This document shows, in pieces, positions 3,387 through 43,253 of a stretch of DNA of 43,592 nt (position 1 is the first letter of the stretch; the number at the start of each line of letters is the position of its first letter). Below the pieces are notes generated by a model, which had not been told where the DNA came from, did not search any database, and saw nothing but the letters and a program-made list of their open reading frames with translations. A program made the position numbers and the translations under genes. The stretch is from a virus. Location of the stretch: positions 1 through 43,592 of the IMG/VR virus record IMGVR_UViG_3300047455_000250. One strand, written 5' to 3'.

Positions 3387-4610
3387 ATGCGCTTTTATGG
3401 CTCTAACGACTTACCGCAAGATTTAGCGAAAAAGTCATTTGCTGCTAATATCGCACGAGTAATGCCTAATGGTACTGCACCATTGTATGCTCTTAGTGGT
3501 ATGGCAAAGAAACGTACGTGTCTGGATATCGAACATGGATACTGGACTAAGAAAATGCAGTTTTTGCATATCACTCTTGATACTGCTATTGCTGACGGTA
3601 CTACAACTACCTTCTCAGTAAACTCTACTGACGGTGTATTGAAGAATCAGATTATCCGCATTCCTAAAGCGTTTAACTCTGGCTCATATGTTCCACCTGA
3701 ATTTGCTCGTGTTACCAGTGTTGACTACGGGAACAACAACATCACAGTTGAGCGTGGATTCGGTAACACTACTGCGGCAACTTCTATTGCTTCTGGTACT
3801 AAGTTAGCAGTACCTTTCAACGCACAGCCTGAAGGTTCACCAAAACCTGCTAGTCGTGCAGTAGTTCCAGAACGTGTAATGAACTACACTCAAATCTTCC
3901 GTAATGCTTGGTCACAATCTCGTACATTGGCAGCTATCAAGCAAGTGGTAGGTAATGGTACTGTTGCGGAAAACAAAGAAGATGCTATCACTTTCCACTC
4001 TCAGGAAATTGAATATGCTACACTGTTTGGTCGCAAGTACATCGGTACTGATAGTGAAACTGGTGAGCCTATTCACATGATGGATGGTTTGGAAGCTGTT
4101 ATTGAAGAACACTCTCCTAGCAACTTACGTGAAGCAGGTGCTACTACTAACTATGAACAGTTGGAAGAAATGCTTGACCCAGTCCTTGACTTCAAAACAC
4201 AGTCTATGTCTGGTAACAGTCGTACTATCTTCTGTGGTAAGCAAGCACTGAAAACTATCAATAACATCGGTCGTTTATCTGGTGAGTACCAGTTGCAAGA
4301 TGATCAGACTAACTTTGGTCTGTCATTTAAAACCTTCAGCACTACTCGTGGACGTTTCAACTTAGTGGAGCATCCATTGCTTAATACCAATGATGACTAC
4401 GCTAAAATGGCGTTTGTAGTAGACTTGTCACAGTTTGACTTCCTATCACTAGAAGGTCGTGATACTCAAGTTGAGTACATTAACGGTGATATGAAATCTA
4501 CTGACGGTCAAGACGCAACTGGTGGTATCTTTACTACTGAGTTGACTACTGAGATTATGAACCCATTTGCTCATGGTGTTATCTATAACCTGACAGCAGC
4601 ATCTGCATAA
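3387..4610 (+). CDS. Major capsid protein
   Basis: A 407-residue protein following the scaffold gene and flanked by a hairpin upstream and a strong terminator downstream, as expected for the most highly expressed head gene. The N-terminal run with TAPLYALSGMAKK recalls the SU10-like/DUF5309 group of HK97-fold capsid proteins. Residues about 50-140 look like a beta-rich insertion, and the C-terminal part carries the long conserved-looking domain. The family match is from memory and is less certain than the role. GGGGT lies upstream of the ATG. One of the genome's five GATC sites is here, at 4302. Confidence 0.85.
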   Translation: MRFYGSNDLPQDLAKKSFAANIARVMPNGTAPLYALSGMAKKRTCLDIEHGYWTKKMQFLHITLDTAIADGTTTTFSVNSTDGVLKNQIIRIPKAFNSGSYVPPEFARVTSVDYGNNNITVERGFGNTTAATSIASGTKLAVPFNAQPEGSPKPASRAVVPERVMNYTQIFRNAWSQSRTLAAIKQVVGNGTVAENKEDAITFHSQEIEYATLFGRKYIGTDSETGEPIHMMDGLEAVIEEHSPSNLREAGATTNYEQLEEMLDPVLDFKTQSMSGNSRTIFCGKQALKTINNIGRLSGEYQLQDDQTNFGLSFKTFSTTRGRFNLVEHPLLNTNDDYAKMAFVVDLSQFDFLSLEGRDTQVEYINGDMKSTDGQDATGGIFTTELTTEIMNPFAHGVIYNLTAASA

Positions 4611-5528: not shown

Positions 5529-8500
5529 ATGGCTATTGAAAATGAAGGAATAAATGAAAACGAATTACTAGGTCGTGACTATCGGTGGCAGTATCTTCAG
5601 AATATTGGTGTGAAGCGGATTAGTGGTACACAACTTCTTACTGAAGGTATGGAACCTAAATGGCTGTACTTCATTACTAGTATTGATTCTTTAGCAGTAT
5701 TAGTAAAAGACACTGTTGAAACATATTGGGCAGGGGCTTTTGGACAACCAGTTGCAGGTAGTAATACTCTTCGTGACACCTTGATACCATTTGAAGAACA
5801 ACGCTATTACAGCACTGAAGATAATGTGGCATACATTTATCGTGGAGGTAGTTGGGTAGGTGTATCTGACGGCAGCACCAATATCCGCAGTCCTGAGTAC
5901 GTCAGTATTGATAGTAGTCGTACTGTTGCGGTAGGTCGTAAGTACATTGTTACTGATGATGCCACTATCACACTTCCAACTGATGAAGTTGAAGATGGTC
6001 ATGTAGTAGAAATTGAGCCAGTTAATGGTGCCAATGTTGATATTGCAGGTACTCTTTATTTTGATGGTTCCAACGAGTCAGTGATTGATACTACTGGCAG
6101 TGCTATCTATCGCTGTATCTGGAGTGTTGATAAGTGGTACATTTTCACTAGTCTTATCCCTAGTGATGAAATTGAAGCAGCAGTATCTCAATGTACCATT
6201 TCCGCACAAACAGCACTTGATGCAGCGGAAGCAGCGGAAATGTCAGAGTTTAATTCTGCTGACCATGCAGCCACTGCACAAGAAGCCGCAGCAGTTGCCA
6301 GTAGTCCCCTTGTCTACTACGGTGCTTGGGATGCTAGCGGTGGTACACTTCCTAGTGCTCCAACTAGTGGTAACGGTGTGTGGCTTATTAGTGTTGCAGG
6401 TGACCTTACAGGTGCAAGTCCCTATACCAATGCAGCAGTTGGTCACACACTTGTCTATCGTGAGGCTGACACAAGTTGGACATTACTTCCTACTAATATC
6501 AGTGTCCAGTCTGTTAATGGCAAAACTGGTGCAGTAACTCTCACTGCTAGTGATGTAGGTGCATTACCTGATAGTAATGTAGTAGGTCCTAATGGTGCTC
6601 CAGTAATGTTAGAAGGCGCTTTTGGGGGTCCTACTGGAAGCCAGACATTCTTCCATACTGGCAACTTCACTCCTAGTAATTATGTTACATGGGCAGCAGC
6701 AGGTACCAGTGGACGTGCTGTATTTGAAGCTGCAACAGTAGCGGACATTAAAGCACTTCTACAATATGGAACTGCTGCAAGCCGAAATGTCGGCACTGCT
6801 AATAGCACAAACATTCCTGATATTGCAATACTGAATCAGCGACTTGGGACTACTGGTAACTTATCAGAAGCAGCATCCCGTGCAGTTACTGGTACTGGCG
6901 CTTTGATGACAGTAGGATTTGAAGGCTTCGGGGGTACAGCCATTGAGGAAAGTTGGGATGAAGCTGTCACTGGTAATGGTTTCCGTTACAGTGTCAGTGC
7001 GTCACCCCTCACTGGTCGCAGCTTTAGCGGACTTAATGTACTAGGTAATGAACGTGGGTTCCAGTTTAACGCTGAGAACAGTCGTTGGTTTGGACGTACA
7101 TTTACTAGTGGTAGTGGATTCACTCCTGATAATTGGTATGAATTTGCTACTATTGACGGCACTCGTGACAATTTGCGAGTGGACGTTCATGGTGGTGATG
7201 CCGATAACTATATCTATCTTGGCAGTTTCAATGTAACCTCCAGTGTTGCCAATTTACCCATAGCACTTGATGGAGAGTTGGATGTTGGTGGTGTTGACAG
7301 TGATGCTAGTGGTGGAGGACGTTGTGTTCAGAAATTCGTACCATTTAGTAACACTGGTGTTGAGTTCTATGTTCGTAGTAAGCTCAATGGCACATTTAGT
7401 CCATGGCGTAAGTACAGTAACCTAGGCACACTAGGCAGTGCTGCGGAAGAGGATGTTACCACTTTTGTCGCAGGAAGTTGGGAAGCTGTTGATGCTGCAA
7501 GTTTCCGTAGTTATATGGGACATGGCACTGCCAGTACGTATAATGTAGGCACAGCAGAAGATGAACTTGTTACTAATGCTACACTTGACAGCAAGATTGG
7601 CACACTTGGTACAGCAGCATCTAAAAATGTTGGCACTGCGGCAGGTGAAGTTCCTCTTAACAGTGACCTCAATATTAGTAATTGGAACACAGCTTATGGA
7701 TGGGGTAATCATGCCAGTGCAGGATATGCAGTTGCCAGTAATTTAGGAAATTTGGCTACTAGAGATACTATCAATAATGCTCACTGGTTAGGTACTGACC
7801 TCAGTGTTGCCAATGGTGGTACTGGAGCTAGTACACAATCAGGCGCACGTAGTAACCTAGGATTAAAAAGTGCAGCTACTAGGGATGTTGGTACTAATAG
7901 CGGGGATGTCGTTACTCAAAACGGAACGCTTATCTCGGGTTATCAACAGCTTTACTTTACTGGGATCACTTACGTTGGCGACTGGGGTGTTGATTTAAAC
8001 AATTCTGACATTATTGGTGCAAATTCAATAATCTTTGCTGATGAATCATCTGGAGTTAATGAGGGGTTGTTATTCCCCAAATCTGGCAGTGCGACACAAA
8101 CATTGTCTGACTACTCTAGGATTTCCTCTTATGGATCGGAGCTGGTATTCTCTCCGACTGCTGGAGGGTCGGATTATAATATTTGGGGAAAGCACAACCT
8201 TTCTAGCCCAATGACAACTAATACTAATCAAACGGTTGCAGGAGATAAAAAATTTACGGGATTAGTAGGGATAGGTGAAACTGTTGCACATGTAGCATTT
8301 AATTTAGACTATGCGCCTCCTAGTGGATTTGCAGCAGCTATATTTAGACACAGAGGAGAGGGAAATGCTAATGGTTACATATTTGATATAGATAACATTG
8401 GAGGGTCATATTTAGTTGACTTCAGGCGAGGCAACTCAAGCGTTGCAAGAATTGAAGCAACAGGTAATGTGATAGCAGCCAACTACTATCCAACTTCCTC

Positions 8501-8825
8501 TGACCAACGCCTGAAAAACAAACTACGTCCAGTAGTGATTAACTACCGTCAGGCAGCAGCACTACAAAGTTGGGTGTTCCAGTGGAAAGACATTGAAGCA
8601 GTGCTAGAGAGTCAACGAGGTAAACTGGAAATTGGTCTTATGGCGCAGGAAGTAATGGAAGTATTTCCTCCTAGTGAATATCCATCACTGGTAATTAAAA
8701 AGGACAATGGCTACTACACTATTGACCCTGATAAAATCCTGATGATGCGAGTATTTGCTAAAGTTGAGCCTCGACTAGTAACGTGGTTCAAAGACTTCAA
8801 GCGTTGGCTGAAAGGAGGTGCATAA
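5529..8825 (+). CDS. Tail fibre with self-cleaving S74 chaperone domain
   Basis: This 1,098-residue protein is the receptor-binding fibre. The N-terminal part (about 1-220) is the probable attachment region. The middle contains repeated fibre-type units such as LGTAASKNVGTA around residues 410-790. The C-terminus is a peptidase S74 intramolecular chaperone: SSDQRLK at 990-996 gives Ser991 and Lys996, matching the Ser-Lys dyad that cuts the chaperone off after trimer folding in endosialidase-type fibres. Residues about 785-985 (bases 7,880-8,480) use TCN serine codons rather than the genome's favoured AGT and hold two of the five GATC sites, so this segment looks recently acquired. The stop overlaps the next start. 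Confidence 0.9.
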   Translation: MAIENEGINENELLGRDYRWQYLQNIGVKRISGTQLLTEGMEPKWLYFITSIDSLAVLVKDTVETYWAGAFGQPVAGSNTLRDTLIPFEEQRYYSTEDNVAYIYRGGSWVGVSDGSTNIRSPEYVSIDSSRTVAVGRKYIVTDDATITLPTDEVEDGHVVEIEPVNGANVDIAGTLYFDGSNESVIDTTGSAIYRCIWSVDKWYIFTSLIPSDEIEAAVSQCTISAQTALDAAEAAEMSEFNSADHAATAQEAAAVASSPLVYYGAWDASGGTLPSAPTSGNGVWLISVAGDLTGASPYTNAAVGHTLVYREADTSWTLLPTNISVQSVNGKTGAVTLTASDVGALPDSNVVGPNGAPVMLEGAFGGPTGSQTFFHTGNFTPSNYVTWAAAGTSGRAVFEAATVADIKALLQYGTAASRNVGTANSTNIPDIAILNQRLGTTGNLSEAASRAVTGTGALMTVGFEGFGGTAIEESWDEAVTGNGFRYSVSASPLTGRSFSGLNVLGNERGFQFNAENSRWFGRTFTSGSGFTPDNWYEFATIDGTRDNLRVDVHGGDADNYIYLGSFNVTSSVANLPIALDGELDVGGVDSDASGGGRCVQKFVPFSNTGVEFYVRSKLNGTFSPWRKYSNLGTLGSAAEEDVTTFVAGSWEAVDAASFRSYMGHGTASTYNVGTAEDELVTNATLDSKIGTLGTAASKNVGTAAGEVPLNSDLNISNWNTAYGWGNHASAGYAVASNLGNLATRDTINNAHWLGTDLSVANGGTGASTQSGARSNLGLKSAATRDVGTNSGDVVTQNGTLISGYQQLYFTGITYVGDWGVDLNNSDIIGANSIIFADESSGVNEGLLFPKSGSATQTLSDYSRISSYGSELVFSPTAGGSDYNIWGKHNLSSPMTTNTNQTVAGDKKFTGLVGIGETVAHVAFNLDYAPPSGFAAAIFRHRGEGNANGYIFDIDNIGGSYLVDFRRGNSSVARIEATGNVIAANYYPTSSDQRLKNKLRPVVINYRQAAALQSWVFQWKDIEAVLESQRGKLEIGLMAQEVMEVFPPSEYPSLVIKKDNGYYTIDPDKILMMRVFAKVEPRLVTWFKDFKRWLKGGA

Positions 8826-22044: not shown

Positions 22045-22547
22045 TAGTCTTTATCTCCCTGTTGCTTTGCCTTACGTGCAGCAATCTTTTCTGCCGCAGT
22101 CATAGGATGGGACTCACCACTACCAGCTCCCTCTGGCTTCGGAGAACCGTAATTCTCCCCTCCGGTACTGCTGTCATCACCACTGTCTTGCCCTTTTTCG
22201 GTACTGCTGCGTCCACCGTCATCTTCTGACTTGGATGTGTTACTTCCTGCCGTTGACGTTTCCGTTGCTGACGACGTTTCTTTTGACGTGCCTTGTTCTT
22301 CTTGTTGCATTTCGCCATTACTTTCCTCCGAGGTGCTACGAGCTGCTAAGAAATATTCCAAGTTGTCAAACTCCTTACGTAGCATTCCTACCTTCTCACG
22401 TAGTGCGCGAGCAAGCATTGGATTACCACGATTGACATTGGTGATACCAGAATCTAATTCACTGGAAATGATACGAATCTTTAACAGTGACTGCTTTGCA
22501 TCTTGCAAAGTTACAATGTTTTCATTGGTACTAGTGTCATTACTCAT
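22044..22547 (-). CDS. Hypothetical protein with acidic disordered tail
   Basis: A 167-residue protein that I do not recognise. Residues 10-75 look helical (TLQDAKQSLLKIRII and following). Residues 75-150 are Ser/Glu/Gly/Thr-rich and probably disordered, and the last 15 are basic. Its start overlaps the stop of the ATPase gene upstream (ATGA) with GGAG before it. It is near the end of the leftward block. Confidence 0.65.
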   Translation of the reverse strand: MSNDTSTNENIVTLQDAKQSLLKIRIISSELDSGITNVNRGNPMLARALREKVGMLRKEFDNLEYFLAARSTSEESNGEMQQEEQGTSKETSSATETSTAGSNTSKSEDDGGRSSTEKGQDSGDDSSTGGENYGSPKPEGAGSGESHPMTAAEKIAARKAKQQGDKD

Positions 22548-23806
22548 GATGGTTTCTCCGATTTGTAGTTAGTTTCTCTGAGCAGAGAGAAGTCTACGTG
22601 TGGTAGGTCTGCATCTTCCTGCTCTTTTAGTGGGATAAGTGTGCCATGACTACTGGCAGTAATCTTTCCTGCTGACCTTAATTTCTGCACTACAACACCA
22701 AGCTCTTTCATGTCACGAAACTCGGTGCTAGTTATGCGAAACAAGTCTTGAAGTTTAATACCTGTTTTGGGATACTTCTTGATAACACTGTAAGCGTAAT
22801 CAGTCTGTTGACTGTTATCACTACGACCAAACTCACCTAATGCTTTTGGCATTAACTGTTCCGCATGGTGTAACACACTGTTGGCATACACTGCATCTTC
22901 CTCATTTATTTCAGTGCGTTGGTCAGCAGCAGCTATTATCATGCAAAGTTTGTAGTAGTGGTTATGACGCCTACTCCAGTAAGATTCCAATCTGCGGTCT
23001 TGGTGTCCCATATCGTGCTTGTATATGTCATCCCAAATTTTCTCCGCAGTTTCATTGACAGTGAACTCACCTTTCACCAGTTCCCGTGTTGCTTTAAGTT
23101 GCATTACTATTGCTTCCCACAACTCAGGATTAGGTGCAGGAGGTTTAGTGATACGAGTTCTAGCACCACCCCCATATATCAACAACATTCTACTAAGCAT
23201 ACCTTGTCCCATAATCTCAGGAGGGAATACATTGGCAAATGTTGTAGGAGTACAACCACCTATCATTGATACTGTTGGCTTAGGAACAAATATATCCTTG
23301 CCTGTCATCTTACTGTGTTCGTACTTATCAAGGTTATCCCAAAGGTTTGTTAATAGTGATATGAATCCAGTGTCACCACTGCCTAGAAAGTCCTCTAGTT
23401 CCCCTGCACATATTAGTGCTTCGGACGGGTCTGCTAGTGAAATGTCTAGTAGCTGCTCCACTTCATCATCACCACCTTGTTCTGATATTAAGTCAAAGCC
23501 TTTACCTAAGTCAGCAAGAAATTTCTCTTTTGAGGTACGTTCTCTGGAAAATTTACGATACCCTGACTGCTCCAATAACTTACGGATAACACTGATAGAG
23601 GAACTTTTCCTACTACCAGCAGTACCCATAAGACAAACATATTGATTAGGATACAGGGTATCAAATCCAAATTGTAGTGAAGCCTGTCTACCTAGCATTG
23701 CGCCAATACCACTAAGCAGTGCCCATCTGTGATAAATGAACGGACTCTCACTACTGGGTTCTACCATATCAAAGTAGTCCTCAAAGATATTTTCCATCTT
23801 TGCCAT
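22544..23806 (-). CDS. DUF3987-like P-loop ATPase (replicative helicase candidate)
   Basis: A 420-residue protein with an N-terminal segment typical of DUF3987 ATPases (PFIYHRWALLSGIGAMLGRQ, residues 22-41). A Walker A loop GTAGSRKS at 61-68 and an acidic Walker B-like stretch (LICAGELEDFL) follow. The C-terminal 80 residues look like a winged-helix region. DUF3987 proteins are found with phage polymerases and primases and are thought to serve as replicative helicases or loaders. That function is by family association, not proven. No other DnaB-type helicase or primase is recognisable in this window, which makes this gene a good candidate for that job. Confidence 0.6.
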   Translation of the reverse strand: MAKMENIFEDYFDMVEPSSESPFIYHRWALLSGIGAMLGRQASLQFGFDTLYPNQYVCLMGTAGSRKSSSISVIRKLLEQSGYRKFSRERTSKEKFLADLGKGFDLISEQGGDDEVEQLLDISLADPSEALICAGELEDFLGSGDTGFISLLTNLWDNLDKYEHSKMTGKDIFVPKPTVSMIGGCTPTTFANVFPPEIMGQGMLSRMLLIYGGGARTRITKPPAPNPELWEAIVMQLKATRELVKGEFTVNETAEKIWDDIYKHDMGHQDRRLESYWSRRHNHYYKLCMIIAAADQRTEINEEDAVYANSVLHHAEQLMPKALGEFGRSDNSQQTDYAYSVIKKYPKTGIKLQDLFRITSTEFRDMKELGVVVQKLRSAGKITASSHGTLIPLKEQEDADLPHVDFSLLRETNYKSEKPS

Positions 23807-24713: not shown

Positions 24714-27080
24714 TCAGTCCTTCAAGTTGCCCCAACAATAGTCCATACCACCACCATCATTAGGTATTATTAACTCTCTGCCACGAATTACTACTGGTCG
24801 TGCCATAAGATTTGATAGTGCTTCTTTGGTAATCTCCGAATAGATAGGAGAGAAGATACCACGTTCCTCTACCATTGCAAATGGGAGTTCACCAAACCGT
24901 ACTGTTACATACTCACTACGTACCTGATATACTATCTCATCATGCACCTGTGCTTTCAGTCGCACTAGTCCACGCTTGATTTGATACTCATACCAAAACT
25001 CAAACAGTGCATCATCTACCATCATTACTGATAGTGACTGTGGCAAGTGTGACACATATTCATTGAGGTGCTTCTTGTCCTTACGATGACGGCTAGGTTT
25101 ACCAAAGCAGAAACGAGTCCATTTGAACCGAGAGTCATCAGTTGGAATAGTAAGCCTTGAGTTAGTCTGTATCCAGTCAATTACTTCATCGTAGTACTTG
25201 CCTTTAATATCAGGATAAGTCTTAATGAAAGTTCGCAGTAGTGCTGCACAAACATCGAGTGCTTTGAAATGGTCAGGCATTTTCAGTAGCCGCTTAGCTT
25301 CCATCACATTCTCATGCCCCATTGTTTCTAGTAGCATAAACTCACTCATGTTGTAGTTACTGCCATGGTTCACACGCTTTGATAGTGTTCGTATTGGCTT
25401 CTCAATTTGCTCTTCTGGAATACCAAAGAACAGGGAAGCATTACGAGTGTGGAAGTCAGGAGCAGTTTCTACTGTGTGCATCAGGTTTTCATCTTCACTA
25501 ATGTATGCAGTCGTACGAGATTCCGCTTGGCTACCATCACAGTTAGCAATAACATAACCTTCATCAGCTACATACATATCACGCAGCTTGTTATCTTGGT
25601 TCTGTATCTGTGTACCAGTCCAAAGGTTAGATGCTTTACTGGCACTACGACCACTAACAGTGCCACCTGCGTTTAGTTCATACAGTAGGCGACCACAATA
25701 CTGGCGAGCGTCAATGAATGTTGACAGTGCTTTTGATACTTCACGATACTCCTGCAATAAGTCGCCAATGACAGCACAGATAGGATTGACACTCTTCCAC
25801 TTCTCAAGGTTTTTGTCATCACTAGATTTAAACACACGAGGTTTTGATAGTGCATTCATTACTGACAGTACTTGCTTCGGACTATTAGGATTGAAACCTT
25901 TGGCTATAAGAGTTTCCAGTCTTTCTAGTGCTGCGTTCTTCCTAGCAGTATAAGTGTCATGGAGTTTCTTCTGTGTTTCCTGTTCAACTTTAAGACCTTC
26001 CAATCCCATAGTAAGATTAGGAAACAGTTTACGAAACTCTATTACATAATTGTCCCTTGCCCACTGTGGTATCTCCATGATGATAGCAACAAATGCCCAC
26101 AGTGTAGCATGGGTATCCATTGCGTTATAGAAGTCAGGGTCACTACTAGCAAGGTCTTTCCAGTACTGGTAGTTAGGCAGGAAATACCCTGCAATAAAAT
26201 CTAGTGTCCGTGGGAGTTCCGCATACCAACTGTGCATGAGGTGGAATGTATCCCACAGGTAATTGTTGAGTGGTGCGTTGTATCGTGCAAAGTAGGTACA
26301 GTCATAACCACCATTCTGCATTATCTTCTCTGCACCGTTCATATTAACACGACGCATACAGTTGATAGCACTCATGGTGTCAGTGTACAGTACATAGGAG
26401 TGTGACACCAGTTTCCCATCTATGTTCCAGAGTCCAGTGTAACCTACTACTTCCATGATAGGAGCACCAAGAAAGGTAGCCTTGCCAGACTTCTTTTTCA
26501 TAGTAGCATAGATACCTTGCAATTCATGGAGCCGTCCTTCATGTTCATATGCTGCTAGTACTCTCTCATTCACTGGCTTCTGCAATGTTTCCACATCCAC
26601 TGCAATTAAGGAAGCAGTACTAAGACGTTCCTCCATCTTCTTCATCTTCTCCACTTCATTACCTTTTATTACTTCATAGGTAAGGTCTGGTACTTTGAAT
26701 GCAGGATATAGATTTTTGTAAACATGACGACGGAAGATAGCTTTACCAGTAGGAGTGGTATTTATCTGCATGAATCCACGAGTGATTATTACTTTCACAC
26801 CACTAACGTTGAATGACGCACCTGCCCACTGGTGGCAACCTACCTTTTTCTTACTGTTAGGATTTATCATCTTCAAGATTGATAACATCTGAACTAACAG
26901 GTTGTCATCACAGGTAATGATAATATCAATACCATGCTTTTTGCAGTTGGAGATATAATGCACTAAGGCTTTATGGTGAGTAGTAGGAAGCCATACATCA
27001 AGACCATCAAGAGAATATCTTGCTGCCTGATACCCACTCTTGTTCTTTCTATCTCCTGCTACTAGTAATGCCTTAGCCAT
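24714..27080 (-). CDS. Family A DNA polymerase with 3'-5' exonuclease
   Basis: This 788-residue enzyme would replicate the phage genome. The exonuclease domain shows Asp162 and Glu164 in AVDVETLQ, and an ExoIII-like YNAMDTHAT. The polymerase domain has motif A (CDGSQAESR, near residue 511), motif B (SKRVNHGSNYNMS, near 570) and motif C (QVHDEIV, near 711). All match the T7/Pol I family. There is no 5'-3' exonuclease domain, as in other phage polymerases. AGGAG precedes the ATG. A terminator lies upstream at 27136-27172, so it may have its own promoter (27105-27132). Confidence 0.95.
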   Translation of the reverse strand: MAKALLVAGDRKNKSGYQAARYSLDGLDVWLPTTHHKALVHYISNCKKHGIDIIITCDDNLLVQMLSILKMINPNSKKKVGCHQWAGASFNVSGVKVIITRGFMQINTTPTGKAIFRRHVYKNLYPAFKVPDLTYEVIKGNEVEKMKKMEERLSTASLIAVDVETLQKPVNERVLAAYEHEGRLHELQGIYATMKKKSGKATFLGAPIMEVVGYTGLWNIDGKLVSHSYVLYTDTMSAINCMRRVNMNGAEKIMQNGGYDCTYFARYNAPLNNYLWDTFHLMHSWYAELPRTLDFIAGYFLPNYQYWKDLASSDPDFYNAMDTHATLWAFVAIIMEIPQWARDNYVIEFRKLFPNLTMGLEGLKVEQETQKKLHDTYTARKNAALERLETLIAKGFNPNSPKQVLSVMNALSKPRVFKSSDDKNLEKWKSVNPICAVIGDLLQEYREVSKALSTFIDARQYCGRLLYELNAGGTVSGRSASKASNLWTGTQIQNQDNKLRDMYVADEGYVIANCDGSQAESRTTAYISEDENLMHTVETAPDFHTRNASLFFGIPEEQIEKPIRTLSKRVNHGSNYNMSEFMLLETMGHENVMEAKRLLKMPDHFKALDVCAALLRTFIKTYPDIKGKYYDEVIDWIQTNSRLTIPTDDSRFKWTRFCFGKPSRHRKDKKHLNEYVSHLPQSLSVMMVDDALFEFWYEYQIKRGLVRLKAQVHDEIVYQVRSEYVTVRFGELPFAMVEERGIFSPIYSEITKEALSNLMARPVVIRGRELIIPNDGGGMDYCWGNLKD

Positions 27081-34898: not shown

Positions 34899-37106
34899 CT
34901 AGAAGGGCGTATCAGTTTGTGGGTTGGTGTTGTAGCTATTGCTACCATTTGCATTACTGCTATTAAACAGTGTAGGCTGCGACGGCTTGGTACTAGCTGC
35001 TTTAGCACTAGCTTCTTTCGTAGCAACTACACTTGCATGACTATCAATAATGGAACGAACCTCCTCGCTCTTTTCTGCTAGTTTAAGTTTATCTCGGAAG
35101 TAGTGGAGCTTGTCCTTAACAGTAGCACCTGGTACTACTTGGGACAGGATACCACCAACAAAGGTAGCGTTCTTAGGAGATTTCACTGCGTTCTCACAAC
35201 TACACATCACTACTAGGTTATGTCTAGCACGAGTAACACCAGTGTAGAGTGTCTCCCTGTTACGCTGCTTTCCATGAGTGTGGTGCATTACTAAGTACAC
35301 GTTGCTCCACTCACTACCTTGTGACTTATATACTGTTAGTGCATAGGTGAATATAATCTCATTGATTTGTCCGTTGCTGTTGATTTTAATATCATACAGC
35401 TCACCATTAGGACTACTGCTACCAGTGGCACTATCACGGTTTTCCACTCTCCGCAGGTAAAGCTCATGCGTTGCCTTACTACTACCTTCACGCAGTTCAT
35501 CAGCACTGGCTTCCATTAGTGCTTCAATCTCTGCTTCACTTTCTGCTACTTGATTGTGTAGGACATGGGCTTGCAGTGATTCCCTTTCTTCCTCTGCCCA
35601 CTGGCGCTGCTGTTCCGATTCTATCTTCCGTAGTCTGCCCCATCTGTCCATTAGTCGTGAAGCAGGTCGTGCTTTCTTACTACCAACATAGGTTTTATTT
35701 TCCTCTATATCTACTATCTCATAGAAGTTCTTAGCATACATGATGCGGTCGCCAATACTGAAATAGTGTTCCTCACGTCCTGATACTACATGGTGGACAT
35801 AGTGACCGTGTAAGTCAGTGAAACCTTGTGCTATGTGTCGGTTAAGCTCAATAGTACCAAATTGTTTGTTGTAGGGTATCAGTACTACATCTTCATCAGG
35901 GTTGAAGTCCTCACTCACTACTTTGTTGTAGAAGTGACGACCATAAGAACGGACAGCCTTTTCAGGTTCCAGTTTCTTAGCAAATGGTAGTATCTTCACA
36001 CTACCAGTGTCATCACTACGCCCCGACCATTCCATTAGTTCGTCTTTACGAATAGGACGCCCTTCCAGTATCCGGTGAGCAAACTTAGTAATGATACCAA
36101 CGTTCCGATACGCAATGTTAAGTTCCACTATTGGTAGTGACAGTAACATATAACCTAGTATTCCATCACCAAATGCTGGTGGTAACTGGTTAAGGTCTCC
36201 AAGGAATATAAAGGTGGTATCCTTCGGATGTGGTAGTGCTGATATCAATGTCTTAAATAGATACACTGGCACACTACCTGCTTCCTCTATTATCACTAGG
36301 TCAAGGTGTGGCAGTTTCTCCATACCACCAAGACCACTACCACCATCAGTTTCAGGTTCCATTCCGTAGCGTGGCACGAATCGTTGTAGTGACTTAGTTT
36401 CACCAGTTGGGATACCATCACTATCAACTTCATCTTCATCGAAGTCCTCTGGATGATATTCTAACAAGTTGTGCATAGTGGAACAGTGACTAGCAAACTT
36501 CTGTGGTAGCACTTCACGTATATTCCTTACCGCTACGTTGGTGTAGGATAGCACTGCTGCACGAGGTCCGCCACTTTGTAATAGCTTCTCAGTAAACTCT
36601 CCTTCACCAAGAGTGCCGATTTTATTGTGCTGTGATAGTTGCTGCGTTAGTAGTCGCACTGTTGTTGTTTTACCATAACCTGCCGCACCAATAAGACAGA
36701 AACTGTCACCTTCCTCACCAAGTTTAATTGCTAGTTTCTGCTTCTCATTAAGCATGTCAAAGGTAATGTCACCCTTGCCGAGGTCACTAGCAACAGCACT
36801 ACTGGTTGCAGATTTGTTTATGCTAGAAGTTGCCGCTGCCTTGCGCCTTAGTTCTAGCTTCTCTTTCCAAGACAGTCCCGCAGTATTAGGACTGGTGGTA
36901 CTGCCGCTGCCAGTAGTGTTAGTATTGGAACTAGAAGTAGCAAGCTTTCTCTCATTATTGCTACCACTGCTATTAGTATCAATACTGCCACTATTATTAC
37001 TAGGATTGTTAGTGCCATTATTGCCCAAATCTTCTCTGCTCGTACCGTCATCATTAAGTCCTGCCCTTCTATTAGCTAGTCGTGATTTCAATGATAGTTT
37101 AGTCAT
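34899..37106 (-). CDS. SF1 DNA helicase (RecD2/Dda-like)
   Basis: A 735-residue helicase. Walker A GAAGYGKTT (140-148), Walker B-like LVIIEEAGS, motif III FLGDLNQLPP, motif IV LNIAYRN, motif V TVYKSQGSEW and motif VI YTGVTRARHNL appear in the right order for superfamily 1B helicases. About 110 N-terminal residues are Asn/Ser/Gly/Thr-rich and disordered, with two copies of a basic motif (SLKSRLANRR at 5-14, SWKEKLELRR at 79-88). The C-terminus is also Asn/Ser-rich. It would unwind DNA for replication or recombination. AAGGAG precedes the ATG, which overlaps the upstream gene by eight bases. Confidence 0.92.
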   Translation of the reverse strand: MTKLSLKSRLANRRAGLNDDGTSREDLGNNGTNNPSNNSGSIDTNSSGSNNERKLATSSSNTNTTGSGSTTSPNTAGLSWKEKLELRRKAAATSSINKSATSSAVASDLGKGDITFDMLNEKQKLAIKLGEEGDSFCLIGAAGYGKTTTVRLLTQQLSQHNKIGTLGEGEFTEKLLQSGGPRAAVLSYTNVAVRNIREVLPQKFASHCSTMHNLLEYHPEDFDEDEVDSDGIPTGETKSLQRFVPRYGMEPETDGGSGLGGMEKLPHLDLVIIEEAGSVPVYLFKTLISALPHPKDTTFIFLGDLNQLPPAFGDGILGYMLLSLPIVELNIAYRNVGIITKFAHRILEGRPIRKDELMEWSGRSDDTGSVKILPFAKKLEPEKAVRSYGRHFYNKVVSEDFNPDEDVVLIPYNKQFGTIELNRHIAQGFTDLHGHYVHHVVSGREEHYFSIGDRIMYAKNFYEIVDIEENKTYVGSKKARPASRLMDRWGRLRKIESEQQRQWAEEERESLQAHVLHNQVAESEAEIEALMEASADELREGSSKATHELYLRRVENRDSATGSSSPNGELYDIKINSNGQINEIIFTYALTVYKSQGSEWSNVYLVMHHTHGKQRNRETLYTGVTRARHNLVVMCSCENAVKSPKNATFVGGILSQVVPGATVKDKLHYFRDKLKLAEKSEEVRSIIDSHASVVATKEASAKAASTKPSQPTLFNSSNANGSNSYNTNPQTDTPF

Positions 37107-38211
37107 TGCTACTATCTCCTTTCTGCAAATTAGTGCTACCTTTGGCGCTACTATATGCTGCCATTCGTGCTTTCATTCGTTCCACTGGGTCGCTGATACT
37201 ATCAACGTCCACCTTGTTTACTGCTGCTACTGCCTCTTTATTTACTGGTATATCGTCAACAACTTTTGTCCGTGTGCTGTACTTGTTACCAGTACCTTTG
37301 GAAGTGGTGAGGTCATCTTCCAGTACTATGAAGCCAAGTTCCTCTTCTTCCTTATACAGTGTTTCAAGGCGATGCTGTAAGTGACGCAATACTAGTGATG
37401 ACTTAGTGCGAGTAGCTTCATCTATAAATTCAAGATTGTTTCTAACAAGTTCTATTGCTTCTTTTAGTAGTTCACGGCGTAGCTTTTGGTCATCAGCACT
37501 AAGGCAAAATTGAACCATTGCTACCTGCGGCTGCGGCACTTCCGCTGCTCTTAGTTGGCGTATTGCCCACTTGCCAAGCTGACTGGTGTATCGTTGCACT
37601 TTGCCGTAGTTTTGGAGCATTCCTTGTAATTCACGTTCAAGGTCTATCTGTGATAGTAACTCTCCATCATTGCGACGTGTTACTGTTGATAGTTGTTCTT
37701 CCAGTAATGTGTCGTGTATCACTTCTCTGGTATTCAGTAGCAGTTGTTTGATAGCCTTACCATCACTAGCATTTTCTACTGTTACTCGATAGCGTGGAAG
37801 TTGCATATCACGTGCTACTAGTTGCGAGCCGTACTTCTGGAGCATTGACAGTAGTGTATCACGATATTTATTGAACTGTTGCTCTTCCATATACAGACCA
37901 CAGCAACCAATACCAGTAGTAATTATCATACCAGTTTTAACCATGATTGCCGTTGTCAGTAGATATTGTTCCGTCCAAGTTAGTTGCTTCTCTGTTACTA
38001 ATGTTTCCAGTATCTTCGCAGTAGGCACACTAAAGATTGGATGTTCACTTGCTACTGCTGTGCCACTGATAGCAGTTTTATGAAACTGATTGCTAGTTAC
38101 TAACTTAACATGAGTATGACAACAATATGAAACCATGCCGCTGTAATGCTGTCTGATAGTGCGAGGTAGTTTCTTGTATTGACCTGCGCTGTTACTTTGA
38201 AATTCATTCAT
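37099..38211 (-). CDS. Hypothetical protein coupled to the helicase
   Basis: A 370-residue protein that I do not recognise. An N-terminal region with several Cys and His residues (SGMVSYCCHTHVKL) is followed by hydrophobic helices (about 65-110), long charged helices (115-300) and a flexible tail. Near the end DPVERMKARMAAY weakly recalls the basic motif in the helicase N-terminus. The start has only a weak GGGA site. Overlap with the helicase gene suggests co-translation and a shared process. Confidence 0.65.
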   Translation of the reverse strand: MNEFQSNSAGQYKKLPRTIRQHYSGMVSYCCHTHVKLVTSNQFHKTAISGTAVASEHPIFSVPTAKILETLVTEKQLTWTEQYLLTTAIMVKTGMIITTGIGCCGLYMEEQQFNKYRDTLLSMLQKYGSQLVARDMQLPRYRVTVENASDGKAIKQLLLNTREVIHDTLLEEQLSTVTRRNDGELLSQIDLERELQGMLQNYGKVQRYTSQLGKWAIRQLRAAEVPQPQVAMVQFCLSADDQKLRRELLKEAIELVRNNLEFIDEATRTKSSLVLRHLQHRLETLYKEEEELGFIVLEDDLTTSKGTGNKYSTRTKVVDDIPVNKEAVAAVNKVDVDSISDPVERMKARMAAYSSAKGSTNLQKGDSSND

Positions 38212-38259: not shown

Positions 38260-38880
38260 TTACTCTGCGGTGTTGGTGCTGCTTGCGCTACTGGTTGCTG
38301 CCGTTGCTGTGAAATATCCTGCTTTGTGCATTGCTGCTAGTGTCATCCACAAATGGTTATTAACGTCCTTTCCGTAGTGTTTCAGGAATGCAAAGCGCAT
38401 AAAGAATCTACGACGGCAACCTTTTGGAAAATCTACTGGAGCCAATAAAAAATAAGGCAAGTCATCTGGAAGGATAACACCACCACTAGCAAGGGCAGTG
38501 ACTTGCGCATTGGTATTGTTAATCTCACTAGTCCAGAAGTCCTGCAATTCACGTAGAATACTAGCACTGGTAGTGGCTGCAAACATTGTTAGTAGTGACA
38601 CACCAAACTCCTGAATGAAACTGTCATTTACTTGCGTTAGTTTCGCAATAGCACAGTCAACCGGCTTTTCATGTGCTATTCCATTAGTTGTGCGTTGCGC
38701 TTGTGTGTTCGTGAACACTGTTAGATTGTGAGCTTGTGCTATTAGACTGCGGCGCTCTTCTGCTTCCTGTTTCAATGTCATATCTTTATGTATCCTATCA
38801 GTAGCTAAACGTGTACGGTGGTGTGCTGCTGCTTCATGTGCAAGATTGTTGCTAATGGTATCAATATCAAAAGTGTTCAT
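38260..38880 (-). CDS. Hypothetical protein, first gene of main early operon
   Basis: A 206-residue protein of unknown function and the first gene downstream of the strong leftward promoter at 38974-39002. A helical, charged N-terminus (1-60), a middle with hydrophobic helices (about 90-160) and an Ala/Thr/Ser-rich end. First-position early genes often encode host-takeover or regulatory proteins, but nothing here identifies one. Confidence 0.65.
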   Translation of the reverse strand: MNTFDIDTISNNLAHEAAAHHRTRLATDRIHKDMTLKQEAEERRSLIAQAHNLTVFTNTQAQRTTNGIAHEKPVDCAIAKLTQVNDSFIQEFGVSLLTMFAATTSASILRELQDFWTSEINNTNAQVTALASGGVILPDDLPYFLLAPVDFPKGCRRRFFMRFAFLKHYGKDVNNHLWMTLAAMHKAGYFTATAATSSASSTNTAE

Positions 38881-38973: not shown

Positions 38974-39002
38974 ATCCTACCATAAATAGTGCGAAAAGTC
39001 AA
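38974..39002 (-). promoter_or_regulatory. Strong leftward early promoter
   Basis: On the leftward strand TTGACT (39002-38997), a 17-base spacer and TAGGAT (38979-38974) make a good sigma70 promoter, with an A-rich run upstream of the -35 box. It reads into the main early operon starting at 38880. The GGAACG repeat array at 39037-39101 lies just upstream of it. Confidence 0.75.
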
Positions 39003-39036
39003 GCGTTTTTTACTACTGCGGAAATGTAATCCCTAT

Positions 39037-39101
39037 GGAACGGCAACACTGACAGCGCATGAAGTGGAACGACAAGGAATGGAAAAGAACATGAGGAACG
39101 T
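39037..39101 (+). repeat. GGAACG iteron array, left arm
   Basis: Four copies of a 7-base unit on the rightward strand: GGAACGG 39037, GGAACGA 39066, GGAATGG 39076, GGAACGT 39095. Start spacings are 29, 10 and 19 bases, close to whole turns of the helix, so bound proteins would lie on one face. It mirrors the array at 39465-39520. Confidence 0.6.
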
Positions 39102-39464
39102 GCGACCCCTCCACCGATACCCTAACCTACACCCCCTCATAATGTATCCGCAGTACTACTATCTAACACCTACTGCACAAGTGGCGTGTGCAAGGGTAAA
39201 GTGTGGGTAGTAGTACAGCCTCGCATATTGCTCTTACCCTTTTATTTTAGGGGGGTATCAAATTTGAACTTATTTAAAAATTGGGTATACCCTATACTAC
39301 TAACAACTATATATGATAATACTAGCCACTACTAGCATATCAACACTACCTACTACTGGTGTGGTATTACTACCTGATACTGGTGGTGGAATGTGGGCTA
39401 TTAGTACTACGGGATACTATAACATATGATATAGGGGGGTGGGCATGGGCTGTACACGCTCCTT
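39102..39464. other. AT-rich gene-free centre, possible replication origin
   Basis: No convincing gene is present. The stretch is flanked by facing GGAACG arrays. It contains two perfect 10-base palindromes, TCAAATTTGA (39258-39267) and GGGTATACCC (39283-39292), and a TATATATGATAAT-type AT-rich run near 39310. G-runs of TAGGGGGG form occur at 39249 and 39432. Iterons beside an easily melted region are typical of origins bound by an initiator protein. An alternative is a control region for the leftward promoter at 38974-39002. Confidence 0.45.
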
Positions 39465-39520
39465 CCGTTCCTTTCCGTTCCACTTTACGCAAAACCGTTC
39501 CACAATGGTTTATCCATTCC
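39465..39520 (-). repeat. GGAACG iteron array, right arm (inverted)
   Basis: Read on the rightward strand the units are CCGTTCC at 39465, 39475 and 39495, and CCATTCC at 39514, with spacings of 10, 20 and 19 bases. On the leftward strand these are GGAACGG-type units pointing at the left array. The core of both arms reads AAGTGGAACG then AAGGAA, an imperfect inverted repeat about 400 bases apart. Confidence 0.6.
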
Positions 39521-39585
39521 ACAGGGATTGCATACTAGCTACTACTAATAACCACAATACCTTACAATCTACTGACAGCCAGACA

Positions 39586-39616
39586 CAAAAAAGCCCCACT
39601 CATAAGAGCGAGGCTT
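39586..39616 (-). terminator. Leftward terminator after isolated early gene
   Basis: On the leftward strand AAGCCTCGCTC (39616-39606) pairs with GAGTGGGGCTT (39601-39591), eleven pairs including two G-U, around a TTAT loop and followed by six T. It ends the single-gene transcript of 39646-40401 before the iteron region. Confidence 0.88.
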
Positions 39617-39645: not shown

Positions 39646-40401
39646 CTATTCAGTTTCAAACAAATCTACGTCAATGTCATCATCAGCAGGTTCCAGTGCT
39701 TTCTTCAGGTTATCCAACCACAGATTGAACACCGCACTATGCTGTACTTGCTCTGGCTCACCTTCCAGTTGCTGATAACTTTCCAGTACCAGTGTCTGAA
39801 TGCGCTCCAGTACTTCAGGCTTAGCAGTCTTACAAGCCGCAGCACCAAATTTGCGCTGTGCCAAGTCCGTCATATATTCACGGGCTTTTTCTTTCGTGCC
39901 AAGTGCTTCCAGTACTTCACTAAGAACTTTAGTAGCTTCCTCAACTTGTTCTTTAGTGACCTTAGTTGAAGCCTTGCGTTTACTGAAATCAGCGTTAAAG
40001 ATTGCTGACCAGTGTTGCAAGTTACCAGTAGCATTATCAACGTCCTCACGTTGGCTATCTTCAATGTACTTGTTGATAAGCTCTTGCAAGTGTTGCTTCA
40101 TCTTAGGAGTGAAACCAACGTCATCACGAATGAATGACTCGACAACTGGCACTTCCATTACAACGCTCTGTGATTTGCGCTTAACTACTGGTGTTCCGTC
40201 ATCACGTTTATCACGGTTAATGTCATCTTCCGACAACTTACCAGCACTAACCAATTCCATCAGATTGTTAAAGCCTTTGTTGCTCTTATCTTCTGGGAAT
40301 GACTTGTAATGGTACATTGCTTCATGTGGACGCTGTTCTACGTTAAGACCTTCAACAGCACCAGTGATTGCTTCATTAGTATTTGCTTGTTCTTGTGACA
40401 T
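39646..40401 (-). CDS. Isolated early gene, unknown (candidate regulator or initiator)
   Basis: A 251-residue protein alone in its own unit, with promoters upstream and a strong terminator downstream. GAGGG precedes the ATG. The protein is acidic and mostly helical: a flexible start (1-25), a Lys/Asp-rich middle, long helices (about 95-235) and a very acidic end (DDDIDVDLFETE) like the tails that recruit partner proteins. I do not recognise a DNA-binding motif. Its place beside the GGAACG arrays makes it a candidate for the protein that binds them, but that is inference only. Confidence 0.7.
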   Translation of the reverse strand: MSQEQANTNEAITGAVEGLNVEQRPHEAMYHYKSFPEDKSNKGFNNLMELVSAGKLSEDDINRDKRDDGTPVVKRKSQSVVMEVPVVESFIRDDVGFTPKMKQHLQELINKYIEDSQREDVDNATGNLQHWSAIFNADFSKRKASTKVTKEQVEEATKVLSEVLEALGTKEKAREYMTDLAQRKFGAAACKTAKPEVLERIQTLVLESYQQLEGEPEQVQHSAVFNLWLDNLKKALEPADDDIDVDLFETE

Positions 40402-40493: not shown

Positions 40494-40690
40494 CAAGTCT
40501 TTCTCATACTTTCCACTGTTAATACTAGCAAACATTTCCAACTAATGCCAGTACTAACAGCAAATAAAATTGTAAAGATTGCCATTGTTGTTACTACTAC
40601 CACACCACAGAAAATGTTAGGTGGGAATGAGTATGATTCGTATTAGTGATAGGGGGTAGGAACTTTTTTACCTTGTGCGCCTAGAGTCCT

Positions 40691-40718
40691 ATATTAGCTC
40701 CCCGTAAAATTTTCTAAA
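40691..40718 (-). promoter_or_regulatory. Possible second leftward promoter
   Basis: TTTAGA (40718-40713), 16 bases, TAATAT (40696-40691) on the leftward strand. The sequence just after it, AGGACTCTAGG then CGCACA, closely resembles AGGATTCTAGG then TCGCACA just after the promoter at 38974-39002. The shared segment supports both being early promoters. Confidence 0.35.
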
Positions 40719-40864
40719 GTTTTGTGGGTTTCCCCCAGTACTAGTAACACACTATGCAGTATGCTGTGGAAGTGGCAAGAAGTCGCACTCTCTTAGTAGC
40801 ACACACACAACTCACCATTAGGTTAGTGGTGGCACAGAAAGTCCACTCCCTTCGGTAGAAAAAG

Positions 40865-40961: not shown

Positions 40962-41534
40962 ATGGCTTCACAGGACACAACAGACATGATGGTTGAGCTG
41001 CTAGGCAAGGGCTATCGTCAGGTGGAAGTGGCAAGGCTCATGGGCATCAGTGAAAGTGCAGTAGCACAAATAGCTGATACGTATAAGGACAGAATACAGG
41101 AAACTCGTATTGAAAGTACTGTTGCCACTCGTGCTATTGACCAAGATATTGATGAAGCAGAGCAGTTAGCACTAGATAGGCTCATGAAGCAGTTGGCATT
41201 TGAGGTTGATACTAATAAGTTGACTCGTGCTTTTAGTGCTCTCAATGGTGCGAAGCGTCGAGCACTGCCAATGGATGATATTACCAAAGGCAGCAGTGCG
41301 ATTGCGGAAGTAACACTACCAGCACACTTGCAGCAGAATATAACTTATGTTCACAATACTCATAACCAGATAGTGCAAATCAATGATAAGTCACTATCAA
41401 CTGCTAGTAATAAGCAGGTGGACAGTCTTCTGGAGAAACACCGGAATCGGATACTAGAATCACCTAATGGTGAGGGAGGTAGTAATGAGATATCAGCAGC
41501 GGATTTTGAAACAGAAACTAGCGAACCTGAGTGA
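40962..41534 (+). CDS. terS: Terminase small subunit
   Basis: A 190-residue protein that would recognise the packaging site and hand DNA to the large subunit. A helix-turn-helix is visible at about residues 18-38 (YRQVEVARLMGISESAVAQI), followed by a long helical oligomerisation region and an acidic, flexible C-terminus. It is the first gene of the late block, directly before the terminase large subunit. The ATG at 40962 follows AAGGGG by seven bases. Confidence 0.8.
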   Translation: MASQDTTDMMVELLGKGYRQVEVARLMGISESAVAQIADTYKDRIQETRIESTVATRAIDQDIDEAEQLALDRLMKQLAFEVDTNKLTRAFSALNGAKRRALPMDDITKGSSAIAEVTLPAHLQQNITYVHNTHNQIVQINDKSLSTASNKQVDSLLEKHRNRILESPNGEGGSNEISAADFETETSEPE

Positions 41535-41663: not shown

Positions 41664-43253
41664 ATGGATGCTCCATCGCCACCACCATCTTCTACTAGCC
41701 CAGTAGCTCTCAATACTGACAACTTTAAGCAACTGTTGCGCACCTCACTAGATTATCTAGGAGGAACAGCACTACCAGATGTTTGTACTGTTGCATTCTC
41801 AGATTTGCACAATAACATTTGGGAACTACTACGAAACTCATGTGAAAGTGAGGTAATGGAATACCTGCGTTTCGCAATAGGTCTACCTCGTGGTCATGCT
41901 AAAACACAAATCATAAAGCTACTGATAATGTGGATAGTCTTCTACACTGATAGACGATTCATACTAGTAGTGTCCAATACTGCTGGCGCTGCACAGAACA
42001 TTATCAATGATGTTTGTGACATGATGAGTGAGCCTAACATTGTTAATGTGTTTGGTGACTGGCGACATGACATTGAGAAGAATAATGCGGAACTGACAAT
42101 ATTCAACTTTAATGGTCGCAAGGTAATACTAAAGCCAATGGGTATTGGTAGTAGTGTTCGTGGTACTAACATTAACAACCGTCGTCCTGAAGTAATAATA
42201 TGTGATGATGCGCAGGACAAGGAAGAAGCTATGAGTCCTGAGATAGCACGGAAGCAGTTGCAGTGGTTCTTGGGTACACTACTAAAGGCACGCTCACCTC
42301 AACGCTGTACTGTTATCTACATTGGTAATATGTACCCTGATATTGAAATTGGTGATAAAGGTAGTGGTGTCTATGGCTGCATCCTTCGGAACCTGCAACT
42401 TAATAGTGAATGGCGTTCATGGATTACTGGTGCAATACAGGAAGATGGTACAGCACTATGGCCTGAGGTACACTCGCTGCAATCACTACTATCAGACCTA
42501 GCACAAGATAGTGATATGGGAGAAGCTGACATTTGGCACGCAGAAGTGCAGAACAATCCCAATCCTAACATTAACAAGTTCCTCGACTTTGATAAGATAC
42601 CGGAATATCCATATGATGAAGCTGACCCAGTAATAGGAAAGTTCATCATGATTGACCCATCACTAGGTAAGAAAACCAGTGATAACCAGATAGTAATGCT
42701 GTTCTATGTATATGATGACAAAGGACCAGTAGCACGAGAATTCCGAGTAATGCAGAATGATGCACCAACAGTAGTAAAGGAAACAATCCAGTGGGCATTG
42801 GAGGAACGTGTGCCATTAGTGTGCAGTGAGAACTATGCTTATCAGGCATCACTACTGCAATGGTTCGTGTTCGTGATGAAAAATATCCAAGTGCCAGAAC
42901 AGGAGATACAATTCGTTGGGATTAACAGAGGTGCCAGAAAGGGCGGCAATACTAAGAACACAGCAATCATTAGTAGCTTCCGCCAGATAATGAAAGGCAG
43001 CTTGATACTACATCCTAATGTCCTGTCACCATATAAGACAGAAGCGCAACTATTCAATCCTACTACTGACAAGAACGTGGATGACGTACTGGATACTACT
43101 GAATATGGACTTCATATATTCCGTGACTACACTAGTGAATATCTTCTGGACACTCCCTTGTTGATAGGTGAGAGCTATGGTATAACTGATGCTACTAAAC
43201 ACGATGATGACTTTGACCCAACATCTTATGACTTTAGTGGAGGACTAAACTAA
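41664..43253 (+). CDS. terL: Terminase large subunit (packaging ATPase-nuclease)
   Basis: A 529-residue motor that pumps DNA into the head and cuts it. The ATPase domain shows a variant Walker A GLPRGHAKT (73-81), a typical terminase form, then a strand FILVVSNTAGAAQNI, and Walker B VIICDDAQ (177-184). The C-terminal nuclease domain begins at FIMIDPS (Asp331), with a second acidic site near VCSENYAY. Size is normal. GAGAGGG precedes the ATG. The stop overlaps the next start (TAATG). Confidence 0.93.
   Translation: MDAPSPPPSSTSPVALNTDNFKQLLRTSLDYLGGTALPDVCTVAFSDLHNNIWELLRNSCESEVMEYLRFAIGLPRGHAKTQIIKLLIMWIVFYTDRRFILVVSNTAGAAQNIINDVCDMMSEPNIVNVFGDWRHDIEKNNAELTIFNFNGRKVILKPMGIGSSVRGTNINNRRPEVIICDDAQDKEEAMSPEIARKQLQWFLGTLLKARSPQRCTVIYIGNMYPDIEIGDKGSGVYGCILRNLQLNSEWRSWITGAIQEDGTALWPEVHSLQSLLSDLAQDSDMGEADIWHAEVQNNPNPNINKFLDFDKIPEYPYDEADPVIGKFIMIDPSLGKKTSDNQIVMLFYVYDDKGPVAREFRVMQNDAPTVVKETIQWALEERVPLVCSENYAYQASLLQWFVFVMKNIQVPEQEIQFVGINRGARKGGNTKNTAIISSFRQIMKGSLILHPNVLSPYKTEAQLFNPTTDKNVDDVLDTTEYGLHIFRDYTSEYLLDTPLLIGESYGITDATKHDDDFDPTSYDFSGGLN

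Follow-up and report, generated by a model that had tools for sequence, protein, structure and literature searches.

Facing repeat arrays around a conserved AT-rich core: a candidate bidirectional replication origin in podoviruses related to Jamesmcgillvirus

What is the function of a non-coding region (hereafter the gap) that separates the leftward early genes of a podovirus from its terminase genes and carries two facing arrays of a short repeat? The gap lies near 39 kb of the window, i.e., the whole stretch of 43,592 bases analyzed here. An exact 127-bp repeat is present at both ends of the window; since its size is that of an assembly k-mer, the assembly is circular, with a length of 43,465 bp, and the ends of the window thus have no biological meaning. 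The large terminase resembles those of the Aeromonas phage P5 (38%) and of PaMx41, PaP2, and 119X (35%), Pseudomonas phages of the genus Jamesmcgillvirus, with further resemblance to the terminases of the Polaromonas phage Tiera and EBPR podovirus 3. Within this Fredfastierviridae-like group, the window matches PaMx41 in both terminase homology and gene order. Judged by its sequence, the phage is a podovirus related to Jamesmcgillvirus (Fredfastierviridae).

Structural genes follow rightward from the terminase, and the leftward block encodes a family A polymerase, a DUF3987 protein, an AAA ATPase, a PD-(D/E)XK nuclease, and a RecD2/Dda-like helicase; the replication gene set is complete in the window. 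The genes and signals around the gap are as follows.

22544–23806, minus strand: DUF3987 protein, candidate replicative primase/helicase
24714–27080, minus strand: family A DNA polymerase
34899–37106, minus strand: RecD2/Dda-like helicase
37099–38211, minus strand: 370-aa gene between the arrays and the helicase, with homologues in the nearest relatives
38260–38880, minus strand: 206-aa gene left of the arrays, for which no homologue was found
39591–39616, minus strand: intrinsic terminator, stopping the leftward p251 transcript ahead of the right arm
39646–40401, minus strand: p251 gene (251 aa, acidic C-terminal tail), member of a large family assigned to phrog_15550 in most relatives
40650–40726, plus strand: second conserved non-coding element (about 80 nt), upstream of the small terminase gene and outside the arrays
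40962–41534, plus strand: small terminase (TerS), with a weak N-terminal HTH match
41664–43253, plus strand: large terminase (TerL)

The facing repeats reported in the first-pass annotation were confirmed. Each arm carries four GGAA(C/T)G units, as listed below.

39024–39107, plus strand: left arm, with the outer boundary AATCCCTATGGAACGG
39037–39042, plus strand: unit L1, GGAACG
39066–39071, plus strand: unit L2, GGAACG
39076–39081, plus strand: unit L3, GGAATG variant
39095–39100, plus strand: unit L4, GGAACG
39455–39533, minus strand: right arm, with the outer boundary AATCCCTGTGGAATGG read on the minus strand
39466–39471, minus strand: unit R1, GGAACG
39476–39481, minus strand: unit R2, GGAACG
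39496–39501, minus strand: unit R3, GGAACG
39515–39520, minus strand: unit R4, GGAATG variant

The left-arm starts given earlier (39037, 39066, 39076, and 39095) proved exact. The right-arm units are also present, but their starts had been placed one base too early, since the 7-mer GGAACGG was read there, and the unit GGAACG is exact in six of the eight cases, the copies at 39076 and 39515 being GGAATG. The arms do form an imperfect inverted repeat, as had been proposed: positions 39057–39084 match 39463–39490 at 82%, positions 39024–39043 match 39514–39533 at 85%, and the outer boundaries of the two arms correspond in this alignment. The proposed helical phase is likewise borne out in the window, with a best period of 9.7 bp and a fit reached by only 4 of 20,000 random placements. 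The window contains 23 exact copies of GGAACG, where shuffles predict 6.7, and the clusters of GGAA(C/T)G are unique, as no second 70-bp stretch of the whole window contains two same-strand copies. A second peak of inverted words, at 36.2 kb within the helicase gene, contained no real inverted repeats, and a search of Rfam yielded no match.

The interior had been described as AT-rich; however, positions 39101–39464 contain 56.9% AT as compared with 57.1% for the genome, and strong AT enrichment is limited to positions 39255–39320. The two perfect 10-nt palindromes claimed for the interior were found at 39258 and 39283 and constitute 2 of the 17 in the genome. The features of the interior are:

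39245–39290, minus strand: conserved core, an AT-rich tract abutting TACCCCCCTA (G-run at 39250–39255 on the plus strand), candidate unwinding element
39255–39320, no strand: 66-bp stretch of 77% AT, close to the highest AT content of any 66-mer in the genome
39258–39267, no strand: 10-nt palindrome TCAAATTTGA
39283–39292, no strand: 10-nt palindrome GGGTATACCC

The best 66-mer of the gap reaches 79% AT, equal to the highest value of the record, which is also attained near 27.7 kb, and in the window this AT-rich candidate unwinding element adjoins the unit arrays.

Direct DNA and protein searches with the gap and its neighbours against known phages yielded no match, and single-sequence scans of viral contigs with TerL and the helicase had no success; a TerL profile alone worked, and retrieved 80 viral contigs and 7 loci in assembled genomes. 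In nearly all of these relatives, the leftward helicase and a gene of 300–480 aa are followed by a gap of 450–800 bp or more, a p251-family gene, TerS, and TerL. In the gap of the closest relative, G001 (TerL identity 50%), an 8-bp unit, ATACCTAG/AAACCTGA (ATACCTGA-type), is repeated in tandem to form two facing arrays about 320 bp apart; between them lies GGGGTATTGAAATTTTTAATAAATAATAATACTACTACTA, which is close to GGGGGGTATCAAATTTGAACTTATTTAAAAATT of the window core. The Pseudomonas phages carry facing arrays of CAAGGT units in the same gap, and in other relatives the gap contains inverted repeats 60–160 bp long and 90–430 bp apart. The first-pass annotation had looked to conservation of unit and spacing in relatives, and neither is conserved: each lineage has a unit of its own, and in G001 the units follow one another at a spacing of 7–8 bp rather than 10. 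These differences indicate that the unit was fully replaced while the layout was retained, the latter comprising the facing repeats, a core that combines high AT content with a G/C-run box, and a location flanked by the early leftward block on one side and the p251 and terminase genes on the other.

The core is alignable across relatives as an AT tract with TACCCCCCTA immediately after it, on a strand that varies between them. In seven Pseudomonas phage records the core and the right arm are 98–100% identical, although non-coding. Unit clusters are confined to the gap in the window and PaMx41, and none were found elsewhere in the parts of G001 that were searched. The gene to the right of the gap flips its orientation among relatives, and the layout is unchanged.

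Several further observations were made on these records. In the right part of the Tiera gap (L004, 43930–44075), a segment of about 72 bp is perfectly duplicated in tandem. The words TAGTAGTA/TACTACTA are abundant on both strands in non-coding regions of the three closest relatives (the window gap and the gaps of L093 and G001). A 119-kb contig filed as Rhodospirillaceae (PBMU01000004.1, loci L093/L094) contains the terminase region twice, at an interval of 45,645 bp, and probably represents a phage contig, either concatemeric or mis-assembled, that was placed in a bacterial bin.

The facing arrangement was quantified by counting 7-mers of the left half of a gap that recur as reverse complements in its right half, in comparison with dinucleotide shuffles, and this statistic was backed by a genome-wide control. 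Facing pairs strongly exceeded shuffles in the window (z = 6.6), G001 (11.7), PaMx41 (5.0), Tiera (6.8), L071 (13.9), and L087 (10.1), and a strong excess was also observed for the gaps of Neko, L092, L050, and L065. By the same statistic, the gaps of P5, L066, and L075 have no facing repeats, and the same-strand (direct) recurrence of 7-mers in gaps is usually at chance. In a sliding scan, the best inverted-repeat segment of the record fell in or beside the gap in about half of 32 records. The neighbourhood of the p251 gene was the sole best inverted-repeat zone in 13 of 28 records (Fisher 6e-12, a value that is indicative only, as the records are related); for the window itself this coarse zone test was not significant (p = 0.069). 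In 14 of 31 records, the 66-mer with the highest AT content of the whole record is located in the gap, as compared with 1.2 expected from length, a test weakened by the general tendency of intergenic regions to be AT-rich. The words CCCCCC and AAAAATT occur in 18 and 19 of 31 gaps, respectively (2.7 and 3.3 expected), and GTTGACA, a −35-like word, is found in relatives' gaps more often than expected (12 as compared with 2.5).

Several known systems share parts of this layout. In iteron-type origins, such as the phage lambda ori and those of iteron plasmids, short, roughly helically spaced units lie beside an AT-rich stretch. The likeness to the window consists in the clustered short units and the adjoining AT-rich stretch, but in such origins there is usually a single array of direct repeats, placed to one side, whereas the core in the window is flanked by two arrays in facing orientation. 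In origins of the herpes oriS type, inverted initiator sites flank an AT-rich spacer, which resembles the inverted units on both sides of the core; this is an analogy of layout only, since the arms considered here are much longer (60–160 bp) with several units each, the interior is larger, and the replication proteins are unrelated. The intergenic region of the Jamesmcgillvirus phages PaMx41, PaP2, and 119X has the same position and layout and a comparable core, but its unit is CAAGGT instead of GGAACG, and no DNA similarity to the window is detectable. In the literature searched, no origin or initiator was described for this widespread group of podoviruses.

The element upstream of TerS, about 1.1 kb from the arrays, contains a G-run, a T-run, TCCTATAT, and TAAAATTTTCTAAA and is present in nearly every member in one orientation (in G001, locus L101, positions 222–310). 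The Tiera record both starts and ends inside it; the authors of that genome sought its ends with PhageTerm, and the end type for Tiera is unstated (PMC9959647). The PaP2-like Pseudomonas phage Shea was found to be terminally redundant by PhageTerm (PMC13348215), a call that we consider weak because the short-read library was made by tagmentation. Assemblies continue through both the gap and the TerS-upstream element, and the ends of near-complete contigs are mostly overlaps of k-mer size (127, 123, and similar), hence uninformative on physical ends. The element is a better candidate for a genome-end or packaging site than the arrays, a late promoter being the alternative.

This bears on the possibility that the gap is a T7-like packaging site or concatemer junction, with the terminase acting on the arrays and cutting in the core, which we regard as quite improbable. 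The SRL and SRR arrays of T7, also a podovirus, resemble the locus in their 6–8 bp units, which flank a few hundred bases and the terminal repeat on either side; moreover, the terminase genes lie 1.5–2 kb from the gap, and the linear GenBank entries for PaP2, 119X, and PaMx41 begin within the core. However, in our T7 control the units are all on one strand, mostly at a 13-bp spacing, whereas the arrays in the window face each other, and symmetric sites would package both ways. The PaP2-type openings have no terminal repeat and look copied from one record, and the sequence around them is among the least conserved of the Pseudomonas gap. The T7 control and the conserved, single, directional element upstream of TerS, distant from the arrays, have thus cost the concatemer-junction model ground.

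Control of transcription, possible though rather unlikely, would involve a regulator that binds both arrays and loops the interior, thereby switching the early leftward promoters, perhaps as an immunity or carrier-state switch. The arrays lie directly upstream of the leftward early block; their helical phase in the window, the enrichment of GTTGACA in relatives, and the turbid plaques and episomal carrier persistence of Shea (PMC13348215) all agree with such a role. Against it, the leftward promoter proposed at 38974–39002 is only a 9-of-12 match, and promoter-like sites in the window are no commoner than in shuffles (8 and 7.3, respectively). The units are absent from all other promoters of the genome, the layout is constant while the right-hand gene changes its orientation, and a looped pair of operators needs no conserved AT tract and G/C-run box between its arms. 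Iteron clusters in plasmids often serve partition or handcuffing, and a centromere-like or copy-control site of the episomal carrier state, acting in either of these ways rather than in initiation, would fit the persistence of Shea (PMC13348215). This we consider very improbable, since an AT-rich core is unexpected for a partition site and no ParA/ParB-type protein was found among the searched proteins near the locus.

The most likely reading, which we hold to be somewhat more probable than all others taken together, is that positions 39024–39533 constitute a bidirectional origin of DNA replication; it is favoured by the conserved layout, the AT-rich core, and the uniqueness of the units, all of them comparative lines of evidence. 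The first-pass annotation had also suggested an origin, and this reading now has the strongest support, though on other grounds than those stated there; by the criterion set in that annotation, conservation of units and spacing in relatives, it would fail. The GC-skew check proposed for it did reveal a sign change near 40 kb; however, the switch tracks gene orientation and provides no independent evidence for an origin. A phage-encoded initiator would bind both facing arrays cooperatively, and the two resulting nucleoprotein complexes would act symmetrically on the interior, melting the AT-rich core at 39249–39320. The replication machinery, comprising the DUF3987 primase/helicase, the RecD2-like helicase, and the family A polymerase, would then be loaded outward in both directions, one fork moving leftward through the early genes and the other rightward through the terminase and structural genes. 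The arrays with their inverted arrangement, the conserved core, and the group-wide persistence of the layout are observations, whereas binding, melting, initiation, and its direction are inferred.

One potential binder is the p251 family, of which most of the group have a member adjacent to the gap or in its vicinity, in one orientation or the other. Forty-two members were aligned, 31 of them in phrog_15550 (function unknown), and in 24 of the 42 the C-terminal tail is acidic and its last residue hydrophobic. Single-strand binding proteins have a similar tail, and the likeness of p251 to them lies in this tail. The predicted structure of p251 has a confident helical C-terminal half; comparison of the model with solved structures gave no fold match, and no DNA-binding fold was recognized. 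The structure of the 370-aa protein was predicted poorly. The L087 record apparently contains two p251-family genes (3823–4455 on the minus strand and 7983–8666 on the plus strand).

A further proposal, which we consider unlikely, is that the locus represents a large undescribed class of phage origins, in which facing arrays and a core of G/C-run and AT tract are kept throughout the group while the unit is entirely swapped between lineages together with a co-diverging new initiator family, possibly p251/phrog_15550; such turnover could separate the origins of co-infecting phages. The comparison delimits both a site and its core and narrows the candidate proteins to a few, all testable in cultivable relatives infecting Pseudomonas aeruginosa. 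If the origin reading is true, these podoviruses would provide a clear case of conserved origin architecture with turnover of the recognition sequence, in which the co-evolution of origin and initiator would be directly testable.
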